Below the pieces are notes generated by a model. That model ran no database searches, was not told the DNA's origin, and saw only the letters and a program-made list of their open reading frames with translations. A program made the position numbers and the translations under genes. Positions 45,608 to 54,869 of a DNA stretch of 64,000 nt are shown here, in pieces (positions within the stretch are counted from its first letter, which is position 1; each line of letters begins with the position of its first letter). This DNA comes from Arthrobacter sp. C2. GTDB taxonomy: Bacteria; Actinomycetota; Actinomycetes; Actinomycetales; Micrococcaceae. The stretch covers positions 2,728,001 to 2,792,000 of the forward strand of contig CP042428.1 in assembly GCA_024207135.1 (NCBI GenBank), written 5' to 3'.

Positions 45608-46963
45608 ATGATCCAGCTTCCCGACCTCGAGCAGTTGCTCGCCGATCCCGTGGTGGCAGCCCTGGCCCGGGCCGAGGAAACCGCATGGTTCAGCGAGCAC
45701 CCCACGCCAAGCACCGCGGGGATCGAACAGTCGGGCATTGACCCGGCCATTGTGGCAGATGCCCGGGCGCGCTTCCGCCGCTTCGCCCCGTGGTTCGCCG
45801 AGCGCTTCGAAGACACCCGACCCACCCACGGCATCCTGGAATCCCCGCTGGTCGGCATCCCGGGGATGCAGGCCGAACTTTCCGCCCGCTTCGGCACCGA
45901 GCTGCCGGGCAAGCTCTGGCTCAAGCGCGACGACTCCCTTCCGGTCAGCGGCTCCATCAAGGCCCGCGGCGGGATCCACGAGGTCCTGGAGGTCGCCGAA
46001 CGGATTGCCACCGAGGCCGGGCTGATGGCCGAGACCGACGACGCCCGGGTGCTGATGACCCCCGAGGCCCGGGACGTGCTCTCGGCCCACGGCATCGCCG
46101 TGGGCTCCACCGGCAACCTGGGCCTGTCGATCGGCATCGTCGCCTCCGAGCTGGGCTTCAAGACCACCGTGCACATGTCGATGGACGCCCGCACCTGGAA
46201 GAAGGACATGCTGCGCTCGCGCGGGGTCACCGTCGTGGAGCACGAGGGCAACTTTTCCGACGCGGTTACCGCAGGCCGCCGCACCGCCGAGGAGGACCCC
46301 AGCGTCTGGTTCGTCGACGACGAGGCCTCGCTGAGCCTGTTCGCCGGATACTCCGCGGCGGGCGCGCGCCTGGCCGGGCAGCTGGCCTCACTGGAGGTCA
46401 CCGTGGACCAGCACCACCCGTTGATCGTGCACCTGCCCTGCGGGGTCGGCGGCGGACCTGGCGGCGTGACCTTCGGGTTGAAGCAGGCATTCGGGGACGC
46501 GGTGCACTGCATCTTCGTCGAACCCACCCATGCTCCGTGCATGTCCCTGGGGGTGCGCACCGGGCTGCACGATGCCATCTCCGTGGCGGACATCGGCTTG
46601 GACGGGCTCACCGCCGCGGACGGGCTGGCGGTGGGCCGCCCCTCGCGCCTGGTGGGCGAGCACCTGCAGCAGATGATCGACGGCTACGTGACGGTCACCG
46701 ATGAGCGTATGAAGGCCTTCCAGGGATTGCTGCACGACACCGAGGGCATCGACGTGGAGCCCAGCGCCGCGGCGGGCTTTGCCGGCCCGTGGACGATGCT
46801 CGCCAACCAGGACTACCGCTCCGCGTTCGGGCTCGACGAGGAGTCCATGGCCAACGCGACCCACATCGTCTGGGCCACCGGCGGCTCCATGGTGCCGGCC
46901 GCCGAGATGGCCGGCTACGTGGCCGAGGGCCAGCGCCTGGCCAACGAGGTCAGTTGGAGCTAA
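45608..46963 (+). CDS. dsdA: D-serine ammonia-lyase (D-serine dehydratase)
   Basis: 451 residues, as in E. coli DsdA. The PLP lysine is in SGSIKARGG at Lys118, the same number as in E. coli. The phosphate-binding loop GSTGNLGLSIG lies near 165 and CGVGGGPGG near 278 is the usual glycine-rich motif. It converts D-serine to pyruvate and ammonia. Start 45608 follows GAAGAGAG by about 9 bp. No dsdC or dsdX neighbours are present. The last 26 codons have a diverged second copy at 54368-54448. Confidence 0.93.
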   Translation: MIQLPDLEQLLADPVVAALARAEETAWFSEHPTPSTAGIEQSGIDPAIVADARARFRRFAPWFAERFEDTRPTHGILESPLVGIPGMQAELSARFGTELPGKLWLKRDDSLPVSGSIKARGGIHEVLEVAERIATEAGLMAETDDARVLMTPEARDVLSAHGIAVGSTGNLGLSIGIVASELGFKTTVHMSMDARTWKKDMLRSRGVTVVEHEGNFSDAVTAGRRTAEEDPSVWFVDDEASLSLFAGYSAAGARLAGQLASLEVTVDQHHPLIVHLPCGVGGGPGGVTFGLKQAFGDAVHCIFVEPTHAPCMSLGVRTGLHDAISVADIGLDGLTAADGLAVGRPSRLVGEHLQQMIDGYVTVTDERMKAFQGLLHDTEGIDVEPSAAAGFAGPWTMLANQDYRSAFGLDEESMANATHIVWATGGSMVPAAEMAGYVAEGQRLANEVSWS

Positions 46964-47230
46964 GAAAACCGGAAGCATGAGCTCGATGACGGTGCACCAA
47001 CGCAGACCGGTAGGCAATTTCCATACCAGCCTAATTCACCCGATACGACTGATTGATGGCTACATGCATGACCCCCGTCTTGGCCTCCAGGCCCGTAGAC
47101 GACGCTCATGCATGAGGGACAGGAATACCCTTCACGACAACTTAAATGACGACATGTTCCACCCAAAATTCGGAAAAGTCACGGACCATGCCCGCCCGCA
47201 CCACCGGGGTAAGTCGCAAACGTAACTTCT

Positions 47231-47830
47231 CTATGTCCGAACTGGTGCAGCCATTTGTTGCAAGACGGCCTCGACGAGGAATTCGAACAGGCGCCGATGC
47301 GAACCCGCATCGGGTTGGGTGATGTATTGCAGGCTGCAGCCATCAATAATGGCGATGAATATTCGAGCGAGCTCCTCCGGCGACAAAATCTGGTCCTGGC
47401 TGTCAACTTCCATCGCCTTGCTGAAAAGAGCGCCCAACCCGGATTCGTAGCCTGGGTAGATGCTGGCAGCAAGCTCTTGGCCGCCTTCTTGCCGCGCCGC
47501 CCAAATGACTAATTCAATTTGAGCCAGGACGTCGCTGGGAGTCATCTCCAACTCGTCCCAGTAGCGCCGGGCGACTTCGACCACCGTAGAGCGGAGGCCG
47601 AGGGAAGGATCAACATCCTCGGCGTAGGTCATCATGTTCTTAAGCCACCGCTCTACGGCGGCCGTGAATAACTCGTTCTTGTCGGCAAAGCAGTAGTGCA
47701 CTGCTGCCAGCGATGCGCCTGCATGCTTGGCTATGTCACGAAGTGTCAGTGACACCACGCCGTGCGTCTGCATCAGTGCAATCGTGGCGTCGATGAGTTG
47801 CTCCTTGCGCTCGGTCGCCGGAATACGCAT
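47231..47830 (-). CDS. TetR family regulator of the TorT-like transport module
   Basis: 199 residues. The helix-turn-helix is TLRDIAKHAGASLAAVHYCF (about 28-47), then ADKNELF and a helical C-terminal domain. The best ribosome site in the region (AAGGAGGA) fixes the start at 47830. It is divergent from the bicupin-transporter-dehydrogenase genes, which it presumably represses through the 183-bp gap between them. I found no clean palindrome in that gap. Confidence 0.85.
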   Translation of the reverse strand: MRIPATERKEQLIDATIALMQTHGVVSLTLRDIAKHAGASLAAVHYCFADKNELFTAAVERWLKNMMTYAEDVDPSLGLRSTVVEVARRYWDELEMTPSDVLAQIELVIWAARQEGGQELAASIYPGYESGLGALFSKAMEVDSQDQILSPEELARIFIAIIDGCSLQYITQPDAGSHRRLFEFLVEAVLQQMAAPVRT

Positions 47831-47886
47831 TTCTCCTCCTTGAAACTTGAAACCGCTAAGACTCGGCACGTCCTTTTGTCCGTAAC

Positions 47887-47916
47887 TTGATGTAATAGCT
47901 ACGACAAATTTAACAT
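47887..47916 (+). promoter_or_regulatory. Possible promoter of the bicupin/TorT-like operon
   Basis: TTGATG (47887-47892) and TAACAT (47911-47916) with an 18-bp spacer, in an A+T-rich patch about 100 bp before the GTG at 48014. Each hexamer matches consensus at four of six positions. Confidence 0.35.
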
Positions 47917-48013
47917 GGACCCTTGACTAAGACAACCGTCCATGAAACTCTCTCCATACGATTTGTTACTCAGCTCACACTAGCCGAGCTCATCCGATGG
48001 AGAGTGGTCTTCC

Positions 48014-48868
48014 GTGCACCCCCAAGTTCAAGTCAGCGACGTCCAAACCCCGTGGCGGTCCAACGCAATGGCGTTTTGGCCCAACAGTGTTCCACAGCCT
48101 TTGAAGCCCGAATGGAACCGAATGGGAACCCGACAAATTGTTCCGATCTGCAAGGACGGCTGGGGCAATTACTCGATCTCGGAATGGGATCTCAAGGCAG
48201 CATCCTGGCAGGACTTCCACCCACACAGCGAATACAACATGGTTCTCGAAGGCGAGCTTTTCGTTGCAGCCGGGGGCGACGTCAAAGTTCTTCAACCAGG
48301 TGATGTGGCGCGTGTCCCGGCAGGCCGGATGGGACGTTACTGGGCGCCGGAGTACGCCCGGATGGTCGGCGTCTATGGGCCAAACCCTGAAGGCGATGCG
48401 TCCGCTGGTTTTGAATACTGGGCATTGGACAATGACGCAGAGATCCACCCGGCGGATCCAACTGCAGAAGACCCTTTGGAGCACTTACCAGGTTTCACCG
48501 GTGTTGAGATCTGGCGGGCTAGTCCAAATATGCCCGAGCGTCCGGAATGGGACCGAAACCGGGGTCGTTTCATCACGCATTCCCCGCAGAGCGGACCGTG
48601 GAATGACCCGGTTCTCTCGACGTGGGAACTCGAGAGTGCTGCCTGGACCGACAGGCATCCACATACGGAATTCAACTTTGTGGTTGCGGGCGAGCTGATC
48701 GTTGAAGTCGCCGGTGAACGTGTGGTTCTGCACGCCGGGGACTCCGTCGAAATCGCCCCCGGGCAGCTAGCCCGCTACAGCGCACCAGAATTTGCACACA
48801 TGGTCGGCGTATATGGACCAAACCCGCACGGGCTGGTCAGCACCGACTTCCACTACGAATCCATTTGA
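48014..48868 (+). CDS. Duplicated cupin (bicupin) protein of unknown function
   Basis: 284 residues made of two similar halves. Each has W-x-L-x2-A-x-W-x-D/R-x-HPH (first HPHSEYNMVLEGEL near 74, second HPHTEFNFVVAGEL near 215), then G-D and a closing APE-x-A-x-MVGVYGPNP. The metal motif is HxHxE-x6-G, with the Glu closer to the histidines than in the standard cupin motif, and the second-motif His is replaced by Tyr (GRY, ARY). No signal peptide is seen. GTG 48014 has GGAGAG upstream. It leads the transporter genes. An isomerase, lyase or ligand-binding role is possible; none is shown. Confidence 0.75.
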   Translation: MHPQVQVSDVQTPWRSNAMAFWPNSVPQPLKPEWNRMGTRQIVPICKDGWGNYSISEWDLKAASWQDFHPHSEYNMVLEGELFVAAGGDVKVLQPGDVARVPAGRMGRYWAPEYARMVGVYGPNPEGDASAGFEYWALDNDAEIHPADPTAEDPLEHLPGFTGVEIWRASPNMPERPEWDRNRGRFITHSPQSGPWNDPVLSTWELESAAWTDRHPHTEFNFVVAGELIVEVAGERVVLHAGDSVEIAPGQLARYSAPEFAHMVGVYGPNPHGLVSTDFHYESI

Positions 48869-48896
48869 ATCCCAGCACCCAAAGGATCGAAGCGAC

Positions 48897-50120
48897 ATGA
48901 CCACGAGATCGCGTACCTTCATAGCACCAATTGCCATCGCCCTAGCTCTCACACTGGGTGGATGCACCCAAGTCGGCGACACCACCGCAGCTGAACGACC
49001 GGATCCAAGCCCGGTAGTAGCCGAGGCCGCGGGGATCTTCGCCGACCCGGCCAAAAATACGCCAGACACGCTGGCCTCGGCGGCCTCTGCCCAGGACTGG
49101 GCCGTGCCCATCGAGGTGATTGACTGCCAAACACCCGGCTGCGAAGGCACACGAACAGCAAGTGTCTACACCCCGTTGGCCCCGTCCGACCTGACACAGG
49201 AATGGAACCTTTGCGCCGTGTTGCCGCACGTGAAGGACCCCTACTGGGTGGGACAGAACGCGGCTATGGTCGCCGAGGCACAGCGCATGGGCATCGCCCT
49301 CCAGACCTATGAGGCAGGCGGCTACACGGAGATCTCCAATCAGCTGGATCAGCTCTCCAATTGCGCAGCAGGTGGTGCCGATGCGATCATCGCCAGCGCC
49401 GTCAGCAATGAGGCTCTCAATACACGCATTGAGGAAATAGCGGCACAGGGAATACCCGTGATCGACGCAGTCAACGGCGTCACCAGCGAGTCGGTCGCCG
49501 GCCGCGCACTCTTTGACTATTGCACCCTGGGCGGAAACCTCGGACGGCACTTGAAAGAAACCGGCAAAAAGGTCCGCGCGGTTTGGTTCCCCGGCCCGGC
49601 GGGTGTCGGCTCCCTTGAGCAGCTCATGTCCTGCTTCGAAAAAGAGTCCGCAGGAGGGGACGTGGAGGTCCTCGGCGTCCAGTATGGCGACACCGGCAAG
49701 GATGCACAGCTGAACCTCGTCGAAAACGCCTTGAGCGCCTACCCCGAGATGAACTATGTCATTGGGAGCGCCACCACGGTCGATGCCGCGGTCGGGCCGC
49801 TGGCCGAACGCGGCTTGGAAGACAAGATCGACACTGCCTCCTATTACTTCACTCCCGAGGTATATTCGCTTCTCGATTCCGGCAAAGCCACCTGTTCCAG
49901 TGCGGGCAACGATCTCGTGCTCTCGCGCATCGCGGTGGATATGGCCCTTCGGGCCCTTGAGAACAAGCCATTCGTCGGCGGAGACTATGTCGGCACGGCT
50001 GCAAGTGTCATTTGCGGACCTGCGGCCGGCAAACAGCACAATAATCTGGACACCCTGGTCAAGGAATTAAATCTGGCACCTGACGGCTACCGGCCCGTTT
50101 TCACGGTCGAAGCGAAGTAG
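48897..50120 (+). CDS. TorT-like periplasmic-binding lipoprotein of an ABC transporter
   Basis: 407 residues. A lipoprotein signal ends LTLGGC (Cys at about 22). The mature part from about 100 on follows TorT, the periplasmic TMAO-sensing protein: NLCAVLPHVKDPYWVGQNAA, then EAGGYTEISNQLDQLSNCAA and YVIGSATTVDAAV near 295. TorT itself partners a histidine kinase; here the next two genes are an ABC ATPase and permease, so this copy acts as a transport receptor. Start 48897 follows AAAGGA. The ligand is unknown; a small amine or N-oxide is a guess based only on family. Confidence 0.8.
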   Translation: MTTRSRTFIAPIAIALALTLGGCTQVGDTTAAERPDPSPVVAEAAGIFADPAKNTPDTLASAASAQDWAVPIEVIDCQTPGCEGTRTASVYTPLAPSDLTQEWNLCAVLPHVKDPYWVGQNAAMVAEAQRMGIALQTYEAGGYTEISNQLDQLSNCAAGGADAIIASAVSNEALNTRIEEIAAQGIPVIDAVNGVTSESVAGRALFDYCTLGGNLGRHLKETGKKVRAVWFPGPAGVGSLEQLMSCFEKESAGGDVEVLGVQYGDTGKDAQLNLVENALSAYPEMNYVIGSATTVDAAVGPLAERGLEDKIDTASYYFTPEVYSLLDSGKATCSSAGNDLVLSRIAVDMALRALENKPFVGGDYVGTAASVICGPAAGKQHNNLDTLVKELNLAPDGYRPVFTVEAK

Positions 50121-50126
50121 GCCCCC

Positions 50127-51638
50127 GTGACCGTCACGACACAGAACCCCACGGTACGGGTCCGCGGACTAACTAAGAAGTTTCAGGGCTTCACCGCTTT
50201 AGACGCGGTGGACATCGACTTTCTGCCCGGCCGCGTGCACATGCTCTTCGGTGAAAACGGTGCCGGAAAGTCTACACTCATCAATCTGCTGGCCGGCGTG
50301 CACCGGGCCGACGCCGGGACCATTGAGGTCGATGGGGTGCCTTGTTCGATCGGCTCCCCCCATGCTGCACGCCAGGTGGGCATTTCGACGGTATTCCAGG
50401 AACCCGCATTGGTTCCGCAACTGACCATCGAAGAGAATCTGAACATTGGCCGCGAGGAAACCCTCGGCTGGTTCCTGCGCCGCCGCGCCATGCGCGCCAA
50501 GGCAGCAGTTGCGCTCGAACGCGTTGCGTCGTTGATGGACCCCGGCACCCACGCCGGCGATCTCAGCCGGGCAGAGCAGCAAATCGTCGAGATTGCGAAA
50601 TCGGTACAGGATAAGGCCCGACTCGTGATCTTCGACGAGCCGACCGCATCACTTACCGAAGAGGAAACGGCCAGACTGTTCGAAACCATTCAGCGGCTGA
50701 AATCCGAGGGCCTAGCCATCATCTACATCACGCACCGCATGTCCGAGCTGCGCGTAATAGGCGATGACATCAGCGTCCTGCGAGACGGAAAGCTCGTGCG
50801 GACTTCCCGTCTCGACGAAGTGGACGACGATCAACTCGTCACCTTGATGACGGGACGAAAGGTCGAGGCGCTGTTCCCGACGATCGCCCACAATCCGGGT
50901 GTCGGCGGCCTCCTACTCGAGGACGTCCACGGACCCGGTTTGCACGGGGTATCGATGAGCGTGAAGCCCGGCGAGATTGTTGGTCTCACCGGATTGGTAG
51001 GTTCCGGCAAGGCCGCCGTCGGAGAAACGATCTATGGGCTCACCCGGCATCATCGCGGCCGCATCATGGTCAACGGCCGCGAACTCACCTCCCGCGGGCC
51101 GCGGGGTCGGGTCGGGGACAGGATCATCCACTATCCCTCGGACCGCAAGAAGGCCGGTTTGGTGCCGACCCGGTCCGCGCGCGAAAATGCATCGCTGTCG
51201 GCCTTGGATACGTATGCCCGCGGCCCAGTGCTCAAACGCGGCATGGAAGCCCGGGCGGCAGACAGGATTCTTGAGCGTCTGGCCTTACGGCCCATGCGGA
51301 CCACGGCACTGCCCGGCACCTTTTCTGGAGGAAACCAGCAAAAGATCGTGCTGGCCCGCGGATTCAGCCGGGTCTACGACCTACACATCTTCGATGAGCC
51401 GACTACCGGTGTGGATGTTGGAGCGAGGTGCGAGATCTATCAGGCGATTGCGGATCTCGTGCATGCAGGGGCGGCCGTACTGGTCATCTCGAGCGACCTG
51501 CCTGAGATCGTCAACCTAGTCCATCGGGCATATGTAATCACCGAGGGACGCATCGTCGGTGAGTTCACCGAGACAGACCTGACCGAAGAGAACCTGCTTC
51601 CATGGTTCTTCCACCACCCAGCAGAGGCCACGGCATGA
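50127..51638 (+). CDS. Sugar-type ABC transporter ATPase with two nucleotide-binding domains (RbsA/MglA type)
   Basis: 503 residues. Domain 1 has Walker A FGENGAGKST near 39-48 and LSRAEQQIVEIAK near 149. Domain 2 has a degenerate Walker A (GLVGSGKAAVGE near 291) and the signature FSGGNQQKIVLARG near 395 with FDEPTTGVDVGA. This fused arrangement is typical of ribose, galactose, xylose and autoinducer-2 importers. GTG 50127 begins 6 bp after the binding protein. Its end overlaps the permease start by 4 bp. Confidence 0.9.
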   Translation: MTVTTQNPTVRVRGLTKKFQGFTALDAVDIDFLPGRVHMLFGENGAGKSTLINLLAGVHRADAGTIEVDGVPCSIGSPHAARQVGISTVFQEPALVPQLTIEENLNIGREETLGWFLRRRAMRAKAAVALERVASLMDPGTHAGDLSRAEQQIVEIAKSVQDKARLVIFDEPTASLTEEETARLFETIQRLKSEGLAIIYITHRMSELRVIGDDISVLRDGKLVRTSRLDEVDDDQLVTLMTGRKVEALFPTIAHNPGVGGLLLEDVHGPGLHGVSMSVKPGEIVGLTGLVGSGKAAVGETIYGLTRHHRGRIMVNGRELTSRGPRGRVGDRIIHYPSDRKKAGLVPTRSARENASLSALDTYARGPVLKRGMEARAADRILERLALRPMRTTALPGTFSGGNQQKIVLARGFSRVYDLHIFDEPTTGVDVGARCEIYQAIADLVHAGAAVLVISSDLPEIVNLVHRAYVITEGRIVGEFTETDLTEENLLPWFFHHPAEATA

Positions 51639-52699
51639 GCATGCTCAAAGAGAAACCCGTCATCAAACAATCACCACTTTCCGACCCCCTGGCATTCAAA
51701 ACTTCGGGCTTTTCGTTCTATTCACTGGCCAGGAAGACATTCGTGGCCTACGGAATCCTGCCGATCCTTCTGGTTCTCCTCCTGGTGGGGTTCACCCTCG
51801 TCGAACCCCGTTTTCTCTCCTCCGGAAACATCGTCAACGTGATGCGGCAAGTTAGTTTCCTGGGGATCATCGCGATTGGCCAGATGATGTATCTGGTGAC
51901 TAGGAATTATGACCTGTCCAATGGCGGAACGGTTGCACTTTCCTCAGTCATCTGTGCCATGGTGCTTTCACACGGCGGTGCCTCACCGCTGATAGGTGCG
52001 CTGGCCGGACTAGCGGTCGGACTAGTCGTCGGGACCATCAACGGGGTGCTGATCGCGGTATTCAAGATCTCCTCGTTTATGGTGACGCTGGGCACGGGTT
52101 CCGCAGCAGTCGGCGTGGCATTGCTTCTGACCGGTGGTGTCCCCATCACGGGCCTTCCTCAGGCCTTTACCAGGGCCTACGGAAGCTCTCTGGTCATGGG
52201 GCTCCCGTTCTCCACATTTGTTATGTTGCTGGTGCTGACCGGTGCCTATGTTTTGTTCAACTGGACGAGGCTGGGCCGCAGGGCCTTCGCCGTCGGCGGT
52301 AACGAACACGCTGCGCACCATGCGGGGGTCAACGTCAAGTCGACACTGCTGAAACTCATGATCACCGGCAGCCTGCTTGCCGCGCTGGTCGGAGTCCTGA
52401 TGACCGCACGTATTTCCAGCGGCGAAGCAAACATCGGCTTGCAGTTCCCCATGGAGTCCATCATCGCCGCTGTCATTGGTGGCATTGCACTCAACGGTGG
52501 CGAGGGAAGGGTGTCCGGTGCCTTCATGGGGGCGCTTTTCATCATCCTTCTCAGCAACGGCATGGACCTGATCCGCGTTCAAAGCTACGTGCAGGACATC
52601 CTGCTCGGCGCCTTGCTGGTACTCGCCCTCATGGTTGACCGGCTGCGAACCCGAGTGCGTCTGACCGCCGATACCAAGCCCCGTCGACTACCGGTCTAG
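51635..52699 (+). CDS. Sugar-type ABC transporter permease (RbsC-like)
   Basis: 354 residues with about ten membrane segments of the BPD_transp_2 family. Motifs include RQVSFLGIIAIGQMMYLVTRN near 72-92, ALAGLAVGLVVGTINGVLIA near 118-137 and GGIALNGGEGRVSGAFMGAL near 284-303. It should pair with the double ATPase and the TorT-like receptor. A hydrophilic N terminus of about 35 residues precedes the first helix. ATG 51635 overlaps the ATPase stop. Confidence 0.9.
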   Translation: MSMLKEKPVIKQSPLSDPLAFKTSGFSFYSLARKTFVAYGILPILLVLLLVGFTLVEPRFLSSGNIVNVMRQVSFLGIIAIGQMMYLVTRNYDLSNGGTVALSSVICAMVLSHGGASPLIGALAGLAVGLVVGTINGVLIAVFKISSFMVTLGTGSAAVGVALLLTGGVPITGLPQAFTRAYGSSLVMGLPFSTFVMLLVLTGAYVLFNWTRLGRRAFAVGGNEHAAHHAGVNVKSTLLKLMITGSLLAALVGVLMTARISSGEANIGLQFPMESIIAAVIGGIALNGGEGRVSGAFMGALFIILLSNGMDLIRVQSYVQDILLGALLVLALMVDRLRTRVRLTADTKPRRLPV

Positions 52700-52758
52700 C
52701 CGGCCTTCCCTTCCCAATTCCATCAATCTACTCACCAACAAACTCAAAGGAACCGATT

Positions 52759-54204
52759 GTGAGCGAAAAACTCGTCCTCAAGAACTTCATCAACGGAAAC
52801 TACGTCGAGCCCCAGGAAAAATCGACCCTGGATCTAGTCGATCCCTTCACCGGCGAGGTCTACGGCACGTCGCCGCTCTCTGGCCCGGCAGACATCGATG
52901 CCGCATTCTCCGCAGCGCAGGACGCCTTCACCACTTGGCGCCGGACCACGCCCGCCGAACGCCAATTGGCCCTGCTTCGGCTGGCCGATGCGGTGGAGGC
53001 TCGGCAGGACGAATTCATAGCTGTGGAATCGCGCAGCTGCGGCAAGCCAACTGCCTTGGTGGCCAGCGAGGAGATTCCGGGCATGGTCGACCATTTGCGC
53101 TTCTTCGGCGGTGCTGCTCGCATTCTGGAAGGGAAATCCGCAGGCGAGTACATGGCCGATCACACCTCTTGGATCCGGCGTGAACCGGTGGGAGTCATCG
53201 GGCAGATCACTCCTTGGAACTACCCAATGATGATGGCAGTATGGAAAATCGCGCCGGCCTTGGCTGGCGGCAACACCATCGTGCTCAAGCCCAGTGACAC
53301 CACACCCGAATCCACCTTGCTGTTGGCCGAGATCGCCTCCGAGTTCCTCCCGGCTGGAGTGTTCAATGTGGTTTGCGGCGACCGCGATACCGGCAAGGGC
53401 ATCGTGGAACACCCCACCGCGGCCATGGTCGCGATCACCGGCTCGGTGGGCGCGGGAATCAACGTGGCTACCTCCGCAGCTGCCGACGTAAAGCGGGTAC
53501 ACCTTGAGCTGGGAGGCAAGGCACCCGTGGTCATCTTCGACGACGCCGACATCACCGCCGCGGCAGAGGCCATCGCCATCGCCGGGTACTTCAATGCCGG
53601 CCAGGATTGCACTGCTGCCACCCGGGTCTTGTGCCAGTCCGGAGTGCATGACAAGTTCGTTGCCGCCCTTGCGGAACAGGCCGACAATGTTGCAACCGCC
53701 TACGAAAAGGGTCTGGATAGCCAGGACGCCATGCTCCCGCCACTGAACAATGCGGCGCAATTTGAACGGGTGCAGCGCGCCATCGATTCGTTGCCTGCGC
53801 ATGCAGTGGTGAATGCCGGTGGCCAGCGCCTGGGCAACTCCGGTTTCCACTATGCAGCCACCGTCGTCAGCGGCTTGCGCCAAGACGATGACCTGGTGCA
53901 GAACGAGATCTTCGGCCCGGTGATCAGCGTCCAGAGCTTTGAGCTGGAGGACGAGGCCCTGGCTATGGCGAACGACGTCGATTATGGCCTCGCTTCGTCG
54001 GTCTGGACCACCGACTTCGGCCGGGCGATGCGCTTGAGCCGAGAGCTGGATTTCGGAACGGTGTGGATCAACACGCACATCCCTCTAGTTGCCGAGATGC
54101 CGCACGGCGGATTCAAGCAGTCTGGCTACGGGAAGGACCTGTCCATGTACGGGCTCGATGACTACACCCGGATCAAGCACGTGATGGCGAACATCGCCAG
54201 CTAA
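52759..54204 (+). CDS. Aldehyde dehydrogenase, gamma-aminobutyraldehyde dehydrogenase-like
   Basis: 481 residues of the ALDH superfamily. The catalytic Cys284 is in NAGQDCTAATRV and the general base Glu250 in LELGGKAPV; ITPWNYPMMMAVWKIAPAL near 154 is the cofactor-side motif. The NAGQDCTAA form is that of aminobutyraldehyde/betaine-aldehyde dehydrogenases (E. coli PatD/YdcW type). It oxidises an aldehyde to the acid with NAD+. GTG 52759 follows AAAGGA. As last gene of the TorT-like operon it suggests that the imported compound is an amine or yields an amino-aldehyde. Confidence 0.88.
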   Translation: MSEKLVLKNFINGNYVEPQEKSTLDLVDPFTGEVYGTSPLSGPADIDAAFSAAQDAFTTWRRTTPAERQLALLRLADAVEARQDEFIAVESRSCGKPTALVASEEIPGMVDHLRFFGGAARILEGKSAGEYMADHTSWIRREPVGVIGQITPWNYPMMMAVWKIAPALAGGNTIVLKPSDTTPESTLLLAEIASEFLPAGVFNVVCGDRDTGKGIVEHPTAAMVAITGSVGAGINVATSAAADVKRVHLELGGKAPVVIFDDADITAAAEAIAIAGYFNAGQDCTAATRVLCQSGVHDKFVAALAEQADNVATAYEKGLDSQDAMLPPLNNAAQFERVQRAIDSLPAHAVVNAGGQRLGNSGFHYAATVVSGLRQDDDLVQNEIFGPVISVQSFELEDEALAMANDVDYGLASSVWTTDFGRAMRLSRELDFGTVWINTHIPLVAEMPHGGFKQSGYGKDLSMYGLDDYTRIKHVMANIAS

Positions 54205-54310: not shown

Positions 54311-54367
54311 TGGGTTCCCGCACCGACTTCCAAGATGCCAGCTCCGTAGCCGATACCGGGCTGAAAC

Positions 54368-54448
54368 GGTTCCATGGTCCCCGCCGATGAGATGGCAGGA
54401 TACGTGGCCGAGGGCCAAAACATGGCCGGCAAGGTTTCCTGGCGCTAG
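54368..54448 (+). pseudogene. Fossil 3' end of a second dsdA gene
   Basis: About 26 codons read GSMVPADEMAGYVAEGQNMA, then a seven-codon GKVSWR-stop end. The last 26 codons of the intact dsdA read GSMVPAAEMAGYVAEGQRLA and then NEVSWS-stop. Alignment is gapless to both stops, but many third positions and several residues differ, so it is not a recent duplicate. A TGA stands two codons upstream of the matching part and no dsdA-like sequence precedes it. It lies 29 bp before the VOC gene. Confidence 0.85.
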
Positions 54449-54476
54449 GCAAGACTCCCGCCGGTAGATTGGGTCC

Positions 54477-54869
54477 ATGGAGATCCTCTCAAGCCGGGTG
54501 CTGCTGCGCCCCGTGGACCTGCCCGAGACGCAGGCGTTTTACCGCGACGTGATGGGGTTGGCCATCGCCCGCGAGTTCGGCACCGTGGAGCACCGCGGCC
54601 TGGTGTTCTTCCTGGGCAACGGCCTGCTGGAGGTGGCGGGCAATCGCGGGGCAGGCGAGCCGTCCTCGCTCGTGCTCTGGCTGCAGGTCCGGGACGTGCA
54701 GGCCGAGCTCCTGCGACTTGCCGGGCGCGGAGTCACGATCGATCGGGAGGCGAGGACCGAGCCATGGGGACCGGTCGAGGGATGGGTCAGTGACCCGGAC
54801 GGAACCAGGATCGTGCTGGTGCAGGTTCCCGAAGACCACCCGATCCGCCGCGACCAGCGCGAGCTTTAA
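54477..54869 (+). CDS. VOC family (glyoxalase/bleomycin-resistance fold) protein
   Basis: 130 residues with two beta-alpha-beta-beta-beta units: VLLRPVDLPETQAFYRDVMGL (metal-side start, about 8-28) and LVLWLQVRDVQAELLRLAGRG near 65-85, ending VSDPDGTRIVLVQVP. VOC proteins bind a divalent metal and act as lyases, isomerases, dioxygenases or resistance proteins. No partner gene suggests the reaction. It is followed by a bidirectional hairpin. Confidence 0.8.
   Translation: MEILSSRVLLRPVDLPETQAFYRDVMGLAIAREFGTVEHRGLVFFLGNGLLEVAGNRGAGEPSSLVLWLQVRDVQAELLRLAGRGVTIDREARTEPWGPVEGWVSDPDGTRIVLVQVPEDHPIRRDQREL

Follow-up and report, generated by a model that had tools for sequence, protein, structure and literature searches.

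An inserted Arthrobacter operon with a TorT-type receptor, a CUT2 importer, a bicupin and an aminoaldehyde dehydrogenase: a candidate route for a small nitrogen compound

Gene content and insertion at dsdA

The window analysed here, a stretch of 64,000 nucleotides from Arthrobacter sp. C2 (contig CP042428.1, positions 2,728,001 to 2,792,000), holds at 47231-54204 a set of six genes for a TetR-family regulator, a bicupin, a TorT-type receptor, the ATPase and permease of a CUT2 importer, and an aminoaldehyde dehydrogenase. We examined this locus as a candidate operon for the uptake and breakdown of a small nitrogen compound. Its genes and borders are as follows.

45608..46963, + strand: D-serine dehydratase-like gene (dsdA), named from sequence reading without a family model; left border of the island
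46882..46967, + strand: left copy of an 86-bp direct repeat, in the dsdA 3' end; 76% identical to 54367-54452
47231..47830, - strand: TetR-family regulator P0006, divergent (PF00440, 40.7 bits)
48014 (GTG) or 48068 (ATG)..48868, + strand: bicupin P0001 (Cupin_2, 72.5 bits, two stretches)
48897..50120, + strand: TorT-type receptor P0002 (NF008185, 249.6 bits against a cut-off of 200)
50127..51638, + strand: RbsA-type double ATPase P0003, GTG start (ABC_tran, two stretches)
51602..52699, probable start ATG 51635, + strand: RbsC-type permease P0004 (BPD_transp_2, 127.8 bits)
52759..54204, + strand: aminoaldehyde dehydrogenase P0005, GTG start (NF010000 PRK13473, 681 bits against a cut-off of 615)
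54367..54452, + strand: right-hand copy of the 86-bp repeat, left over from the 3' end of dsdA
54477..54869, + strand: VOC (glyoxalase-like) gene, named from sequence reading; right border of the island

A first-pass annotation of this DNA had described the gene set, the divergent TetR gene, the 6 bp between receptor stop and ATPase start and the NAGQDC motif of the dehydrogenase, and all were found in place. The probable permease start overlaps the ATPase stop, and 59 bp separate the permease from the dehydrogenase. The locus thereby unites in one operon the Peripla_BP_4 receptor, fused double ATPase and RbsC-type permease of a CUT2 importer. By family models the permease resembles AraH and RbsC; the ATPase is AraG/RbsA/XylG-like but falls below the cut-offs of those equivalogs. 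Promoter and terminator scans gave nothing above chance.

A new observation is that the operon has been inserted between dsdA and the VOC gene and is flanked by the 86-bp repeat of the dsdA 3' end. The G+C content is 0.55-0.62 in the island and 0.63-0.71 on its flanks. Among 14 relatives searched within the genus, eight carry the VOC gene, in seven of them directly preceded by an intact dsdA; neither the bicupin nor an orthologue of the receptor (best match 1.4e-9) was found in any of the 14. In the eighth carrier of the VOC gene (G301) the dsdA-VOC junction is occupied by another cassette, about 4.8 kb long, and the border sequence is again repeated. Taken together, the repeat, the G+C content, the genus comparison and the second cassette identify the junction as a repeated landing site for different cassettes within one genus, and the operon of the window was most likely acquired horizontally. 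Judged by eye, the three largest frames of the G301 cassette (L180) encode a DUF1989-like protein, a GntR-like regulator and an Nramp-like transporter.

A TorT-type receptor beside an importer

P0002 passes the TorT model NF008185 and fails the strict equivalog TIGR02955 (187 against 310 bits); by these scores it is a relative of TorT and not TorT itself. A cysteine at position 23, read from the sequence, makes it a probable lipoprotein. The next models follow at a great distance, with the rhizopine receptor at 40 bits (cut-off 420) and the ribose (RbsB, 27 bits), autoinducer-2, multiple-monosaccharide, xylose, rhamnose and allose receptor models at 20-27 bits. The first-pass assignment to the TorT family is borne out by these values, and the receptor does not align better with ribose or xylose binding proteins than with TorT, an outcome that the same annotation had named as decisive against it.

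Comparison with solved structures gave the same ranking. By sequence, the closest are 4yhs (E 9.6e-70) and TorT (3o1h, E 1.8e-28), the next being at E 1.8e-9; with a 21-row family profile, 4yhs scores 487 bits, TorT 290 and the next, a sugar-type receptor, 113. An AlphaFold model of P0002, with a mean predicted local distance difference test score (pLDDT) of 89.3, has 4yhs and three TorT chains as its top four fold matches, at 39% identity for 4yhs and 26% for TorT. The closest solved receptor, 4yhs, is the Bradyrhizobium CUT2 solute-binding protein BBta_2440, a TorT-family member of a clade other than that of P0002; its structure presumably contains bis-tris as ligand.

The residues that we take to hold trimethylamine N-oxide (TMAO) in the TorT protein of TorSTR, D42, Y44, W45, Y71, W140 and Y254, align to D114, Y116, W117, Y143, Y208 and Y317 of P0002, so that the pocket residues agree apart from W140, which is Y208 here. 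The polar residues that bind ribose in E. coli RbsB, which we take to be D89, R90, R141, N190 and D215, match V192, N193, E241, S291 and Y317 by way of the ribose receptor 2ioy; with these residues replaced, the sugar site is not kept. D114, W117, Y143 and Y317 are invariant or nearly so in relatives of P0002 that have different gene neighbours. This retention across differing neighbours argues for a ligand that is small, polar and either a nitrogen or an N-O/C=O compound, not for TMAO specifically.

An ordinary CUT2 importer for a sugar or polyol, followed by unrelated genes, could account for the AraG/RbsA-like ATPase, the AraH/RbsC-like permease, a fold common to CUT2 sugar receptors and the monosaccharide label of 4yhs. 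Given the receptor scores, the loss of the assumed ribose ligands and the amine-island relatives of the cupin described below, we regard this explanation as very unlikely, and a plain sugar importer was rejected on the first two of these grounds. Membership of a TorSTR system was rejected as well: TorT partners the kinase TorS, whereas P0002 has an ABC importer adjoining and there is no kinase at 47231-54204. In this operon the receptor most probably serves transport, as the first-pass annotation had concluded.

The same annotation had treated the connection of a TorT-type protein to an ABC importer as exceptional, which did not hold. In the loci of 23 receptor relatives, collected through the receptor alignment, ATPase and permease genes adjoin the receptor in 17, a chemoreceptor with a TorS sensor domain is present in three and a histidine kinase adjoins in two (L093, L099), with one locus truncated. 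In a plasmid collection 62 records match the receptor, and all five regions opened have an ATPase and a permease gene in line; the best 10 of at least 5000 plasmid ATPase matches all abut a TorT-type receptor gene, with gaps of 21-201 bp. Receptor and ATPase thus belong together, and a TorT-type receptor beside a CUT2 importer is a common arrangement, one of whose members (4yhs) is solved and CUT2-labelled, and not the novelty of this locus. Reliance on the label 'TMAO reductase system periplasmic protein TorT' may lead astray, given that 17 of 23 relatives adjoin an importer, and the locus offers candidates for the cargo of receptors that bear this label beside ABC importers instead of kinases. 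The chemoreceptor genes (L091 11056-13209, L092 11057-13204, L094 8604-10760) represent a third wiring of the TorT family, besides kinase and ABC importer.

The bicupin and its single-domain relatives

The two halves of P0001 are 42% identical, with HPHxE at about 48218-48232 and 48656-48670. In an alignment of 45 cupin domains that includes both halves, HPHxE, GEL, GD and AP are invariant and YGPNP is nearly so. Both halves retain these elements together with RY (signature HPHxE...RY.AP...GPNP), the C half deviating at two near-invariant sites (T for E45 and A for G95). As we read the alignment, the usual motif-2 histidine is replaced by G or A in these domains. The protein fits Cupin_2 (72.5 bits) far better than the EutQ family PF06249 (29.3 bits). 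EutQ proper, of ethanolamine use, was rejected, since the equivalog NF012001 gave 29.3 against 193 bits; the looser PF06249 was passed (29.3 against 21) over residues 52-108. Structure modelling of the bicupin, with five sequences as input, was weak (mean pLDDT 74 at best and 37-59 for the other four models), and fold matches were generic two-domain cupins.

A search at E up to 1e-6 in 395 genomes of the family found relatives of P0001 in 19, the window genome included; those of the other 18 are 40-55% identical and have about one domain each. The neighbourhoods of 41 of 44 places were taken, comprising 40 single-cupin genes and one fused gene (L076). Within 3 kb of the 40 single cupins lie a trimethylamine monooxygenase in 18 cases, a transporter of the BCCT, APC, NCS1 or CUT2 type in 29, a second cupin type (cupC3) in 23, a third (cupC7) in 14 and a P0006-like TetR in 16. 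The monooxygenase taken as representative scores 733 bits, above the 675 that its model requires. At the level of whole genomes, a monooxygenase match is present in 17 of the 19 that carry the cupin (16 of them above the cut-off) and in 66 of the 376 others (Fisher p 9e-11, uncorrected for relatedness). Among representatives of further neighbours, family models are passed in L061 by phosphofructokinase and fructose-bisphosphate aldolase, in L066 by ribulose-phosphate epimerase and ribose-5-phosphate isomerase, and in L065 by primary-amine oxidase; a gene resembling NADH oxidoreductases misses its cut-off (101 against 383), and an APC carrier matches the permease model NF053774 weakly (214 against 690). 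In genome G438 the cupin is fused to a flavin adenine dinucleotide (FAD) protein that we read as amine-oxidase-like, no model reaching its cut-off, and in G452 the two are adjacent. A second new observation is that cupins of this family are otherwise found chiefly in methylated-amine islands, in many cases next to a trimethylamine monooxygenase. Judged by these contexts the family marks amine breakdown, and with the signature conserved both halves of P0001 look functional.

Gram-positive methylotrophy islands have been described in which small EutQ-annotated cupins lie next to monooxygenase and amine oxidase genes; the sections of that 2015 paper drawn on here propose a role for them in methylated amine oxidation, report no TMAO demethylase gene of the alphaproteobacterial type near the monooxygenase, and name a different candidate (PMC5023230). 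As far as those sections describe them (PMC5023230), the islands resemble our single-cupin loci in trimethylamine monooxygenase, amine oxidase and sugar-phosphate genes, and their cupin could be any of the three types found in these loci, cupC3 being EutQ-like too. P0001 differs from the EutQ-like island cupins described there in being two fused domains and in belonging to a transporter operon without those genes. The locus also yields testable candidates for the role that these cupins, unexplained so far, play in the islands.

Plasmid pGKT2 of Gordonia sp. KTR9 also encodes a single cupin (L032 11947-12351) with 52% identity to P0001 in the part that matches; two genes for cytochrome P450 and one for an FAD oxidoreductase lie nearby.

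Orthologous operons and a proposed pathway

Receptors 65-70% identical to P0002 mark four orthologous loci, in Leucobacter soli (L077), Arthrobacter hankyongi (L078), Rhizobium sp. Root1212 (L079) and A. crystallopoietes BAB-32 (L080). TetR (40-52% identical to P0006), receptor, ATPase and permease are kept in all four; the Leucobacter TetR gene runs in the direction of the importer and is not divergent. A single-domain cupin gene precedes the receptor in all three actinobacterial loci, and the two Arthrobacter loci (also L057, L058) add a dehydrogenase 76% identical to P0005, a class III aminotransferase (PRK06541, 795 against 574 bits) and a second single cupin. These operons, likewise new here, mean that the composition, of which the first-pass annotation knew no described example, is not unique. 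In A. crystallopoietes the second cupin is followed by a second dehydrogenase, 46% identical to P0005 (L057 11484-13115). In Leucobacter a PRK13473-like dehydrogenase (610 against 615 bits) is encoded just upstream and divergently.

The Rhizobium locus has no match to the cupin or the dehydrogenase. There, as a further new observation, the importer lies directly ahead of a relative of the BisC group of molybdopterin S/N-oxide reductases, which begins 28 bp past the permease and scores 891 bits with TIGR00509 (cut-off 1018, not reached) and 644 with the TorA model. It is the only strong BisC-type match of its genome (next 152 bits), and none is strong in the window genome, the two Arthrobacter genomes or Leucobacter (best 42, 91, 85 and 23 bits). 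Because the window and these four loci share parts of the set, and the relatives of the ATPase abut receptors, the gene grouping is not due to chance. Close orthologues are rare: the families of the Rhizobium and the Leucobacter contain one each, in 394 and 378 genomes, respectively, namely the strain itself (70% for Leucobacter), with the other 29 matches at 43-48% identity in the former and two more places at 39-41% in the latter.

By identity the N half of the bicupin comes closest to the first single cupin of the orthologous operon (56-57%), and the second single cupin is not the closest to the C half. As both halves are long-branched in the cupin tree, an origin by joining of two single cupins is unproven.

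P0005, which carries NAGQDC, passes the PRK13473 subfamily cut-off for aminobutyraldehyde dehydrogenases and fails the stricter equivalog TIGR03374 (535 against 909). Its best solved relatives are 1wnb, 6c43 (named gamma-aminobutyraldehyde dehydrogenase) and 4dal, at 488-496 bits, followed by a betaine aldehyde dehydrogenase at 335. Its expected substrate is an aminoaldehyde. P0006 is likely a repressor of the operon. It does not reach the model of the choline repressor BetI (TIGR03384, 53.9 against 201.3 bits, residues 7-68 only), and when 20 intergenic stretches were searched for palindromes by a simple scan, no shared TetR operator emerged, with none in that of the window.

The protein families, the gene order, the insertion at dsdA and the co-occurrences are read directly from sequence; from them we infer the substrate class, the enzymatic role of the cupin, the order of steps and repression by TetR. 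With moderate confidence, we propose an acquired catabolic operon for a small nitrogen compound that combines TorT-type capture, CUT2 import, bicupin chemistry and aminoaldehyde oxidation. TetR would release the operon in response to the compound or one of its products. The lipoprotein receptor would bind the compound, most likely an aliphatic amine or N-oxide, in its aromatic pocket and pass it to the CUT2-type importer. In the cell the bicupin would act on the nitrogen group or on the first product, and the dehydrogenase would oxidise the aminoaldehyde so formed, giving an omega-amino acid; an omega-aminotransferase would be added in the related Arthrobacter operons. An amine is the likely ligand class, consistent with the first-pass suggestion of an amine-like import, for which the TorT-type pocket, the poor match to sugar receptors, the aminoaldehyde dehydrogenase, the aminotransferase of two orthologous operons and the methylated-amine islands of the cupin speak.

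Several observations weigh against this proposal. 4yhs was deposited under a monosaccharide/CUT2 name, and cupins that lack the usual motif-2 histidine may serve in binding or regulation. No monooxygenase lies within 3 kb of 22 of the 40 single cupins, and the co-occurrence statistic ignores kinship. Unlike the cupins of methylated-amine islands, the operon is without a trimethylamine monooxygenase or amine oxidase; the monooxygenase gene of the window genome lies about 1.09 Mb away with no cupin adjoining, and 10 of the 14 genus relatives have a monooxygenase without any cupin match. A part for the operon in trimethylamine use is therefore not obvious here. With TMAO itself as the compound the dehydrogenase would be superfluous, and TMAO as sole substrate was rejected because it would require neither this enzyme nor the aminotransferase. 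The reductase neighbour in Rhizobium is a single case under the curated cut-off.

Part of the evidence could also be explained by a putrescine-like primary amine or amino alcohol with no N-oxide step, its aldehyde being made elsewhere by transamination or oxidation and the cupin serving as sensor or stabiliser. The aminotransferase and aminobutyraldehyde dehydrogenase of two orthologous operons, the dehydrogenase group of P0005 and the missing motif-2 histidine (alignment as read) are in keeping with this. We nevertheless judge it unlikely: neither an aminotransferase nor an oxidase is encoded in the operon of the window, a dosage-dependent or catalytic role is suggested by the two cupins of each Arthrobacter operon and by a fused pair whose signature is kept, and the BisC-type neighbour in Rhizobium would be left unexplained.

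Within the proposed amine class, the presence of either cupin and dehydrogenase or an S/N-oxide reductase behind the same importer, together with the tie of the cupins to an N-oxide-forming monooxygenase, suggests amine N-oxides as a bold subset worth testing. A specific version, which we consider doubtful, is that the cupins are new amine N-oxide-processing enzymes (amine oxide to secondary amine plus aldehyde) and the missing TMAO demethylase of Gram-positive trimethylamine users, a larger amine oxide being imported here and the Rhizobium importer feeding a molybdenum reductase; its basis is one Rhizobium locus and paralogous cupins. TmoXWV, which we take to be a TMAO importer, and the Methylocella TMAO permease share the proposed ligand class and belong to transporter families other than CUT2. 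In the open-access literature, the titles and abstract openings among the matches listed describe neither a TorT-type ABC importer nor a cupin acting on amine oxides.

Distant TorT-type importers have varied neighbour genes and therefore point to diverse ligands in the family, possibly lactams or N-heterocycles, which also counts against an amine. They lie beside genes for the 5-oxoprolinase PxpA and biotin carboxylase in Ruegeria, Diaphorobacter and Rhizobium and, in Rhodococcus, near FAD oxidoreductase, amidohydrolase and succinate-semialdehyde dehydrogenase genes; in addition, 4-aminobutanal equilibrates with 1-pyrroline. The ligand might accordingly be a lactam, cyclic amide or N-heterocycle whose ring opening yields an omega-amino acid or aminoaldehyde, with the bicupin as a hydrolase or isomerase helper. 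This too is improbable, to a similar degree as a putrescine-like amine, as no ring-opening gene is present from TetR to operon end in the window or the two Arthrobacter orthologues, or among the partly identified Leucobacter and Rhizobium neighbours.

Two further groups of TorT-type loci may be recorded. One clade (L033, L034, L081-L083, L085-L087) adjoins FAD oxidoreductase and amidohydrolase genes, called from annotation in L033 and L034, by Pfam in L085 and, for the rest, from the similarity of gene sizes alone. On Ruegeria, Diaphorobacter and Rhizobium plasmids (L035, L036, L037), TorT-type CUT2 importers stand directly downstream of PxpA and biotin carboxylase/carboxyltransferase genes, which suggests a lactam pathway driven by carboxylation and served by an importer of its own.

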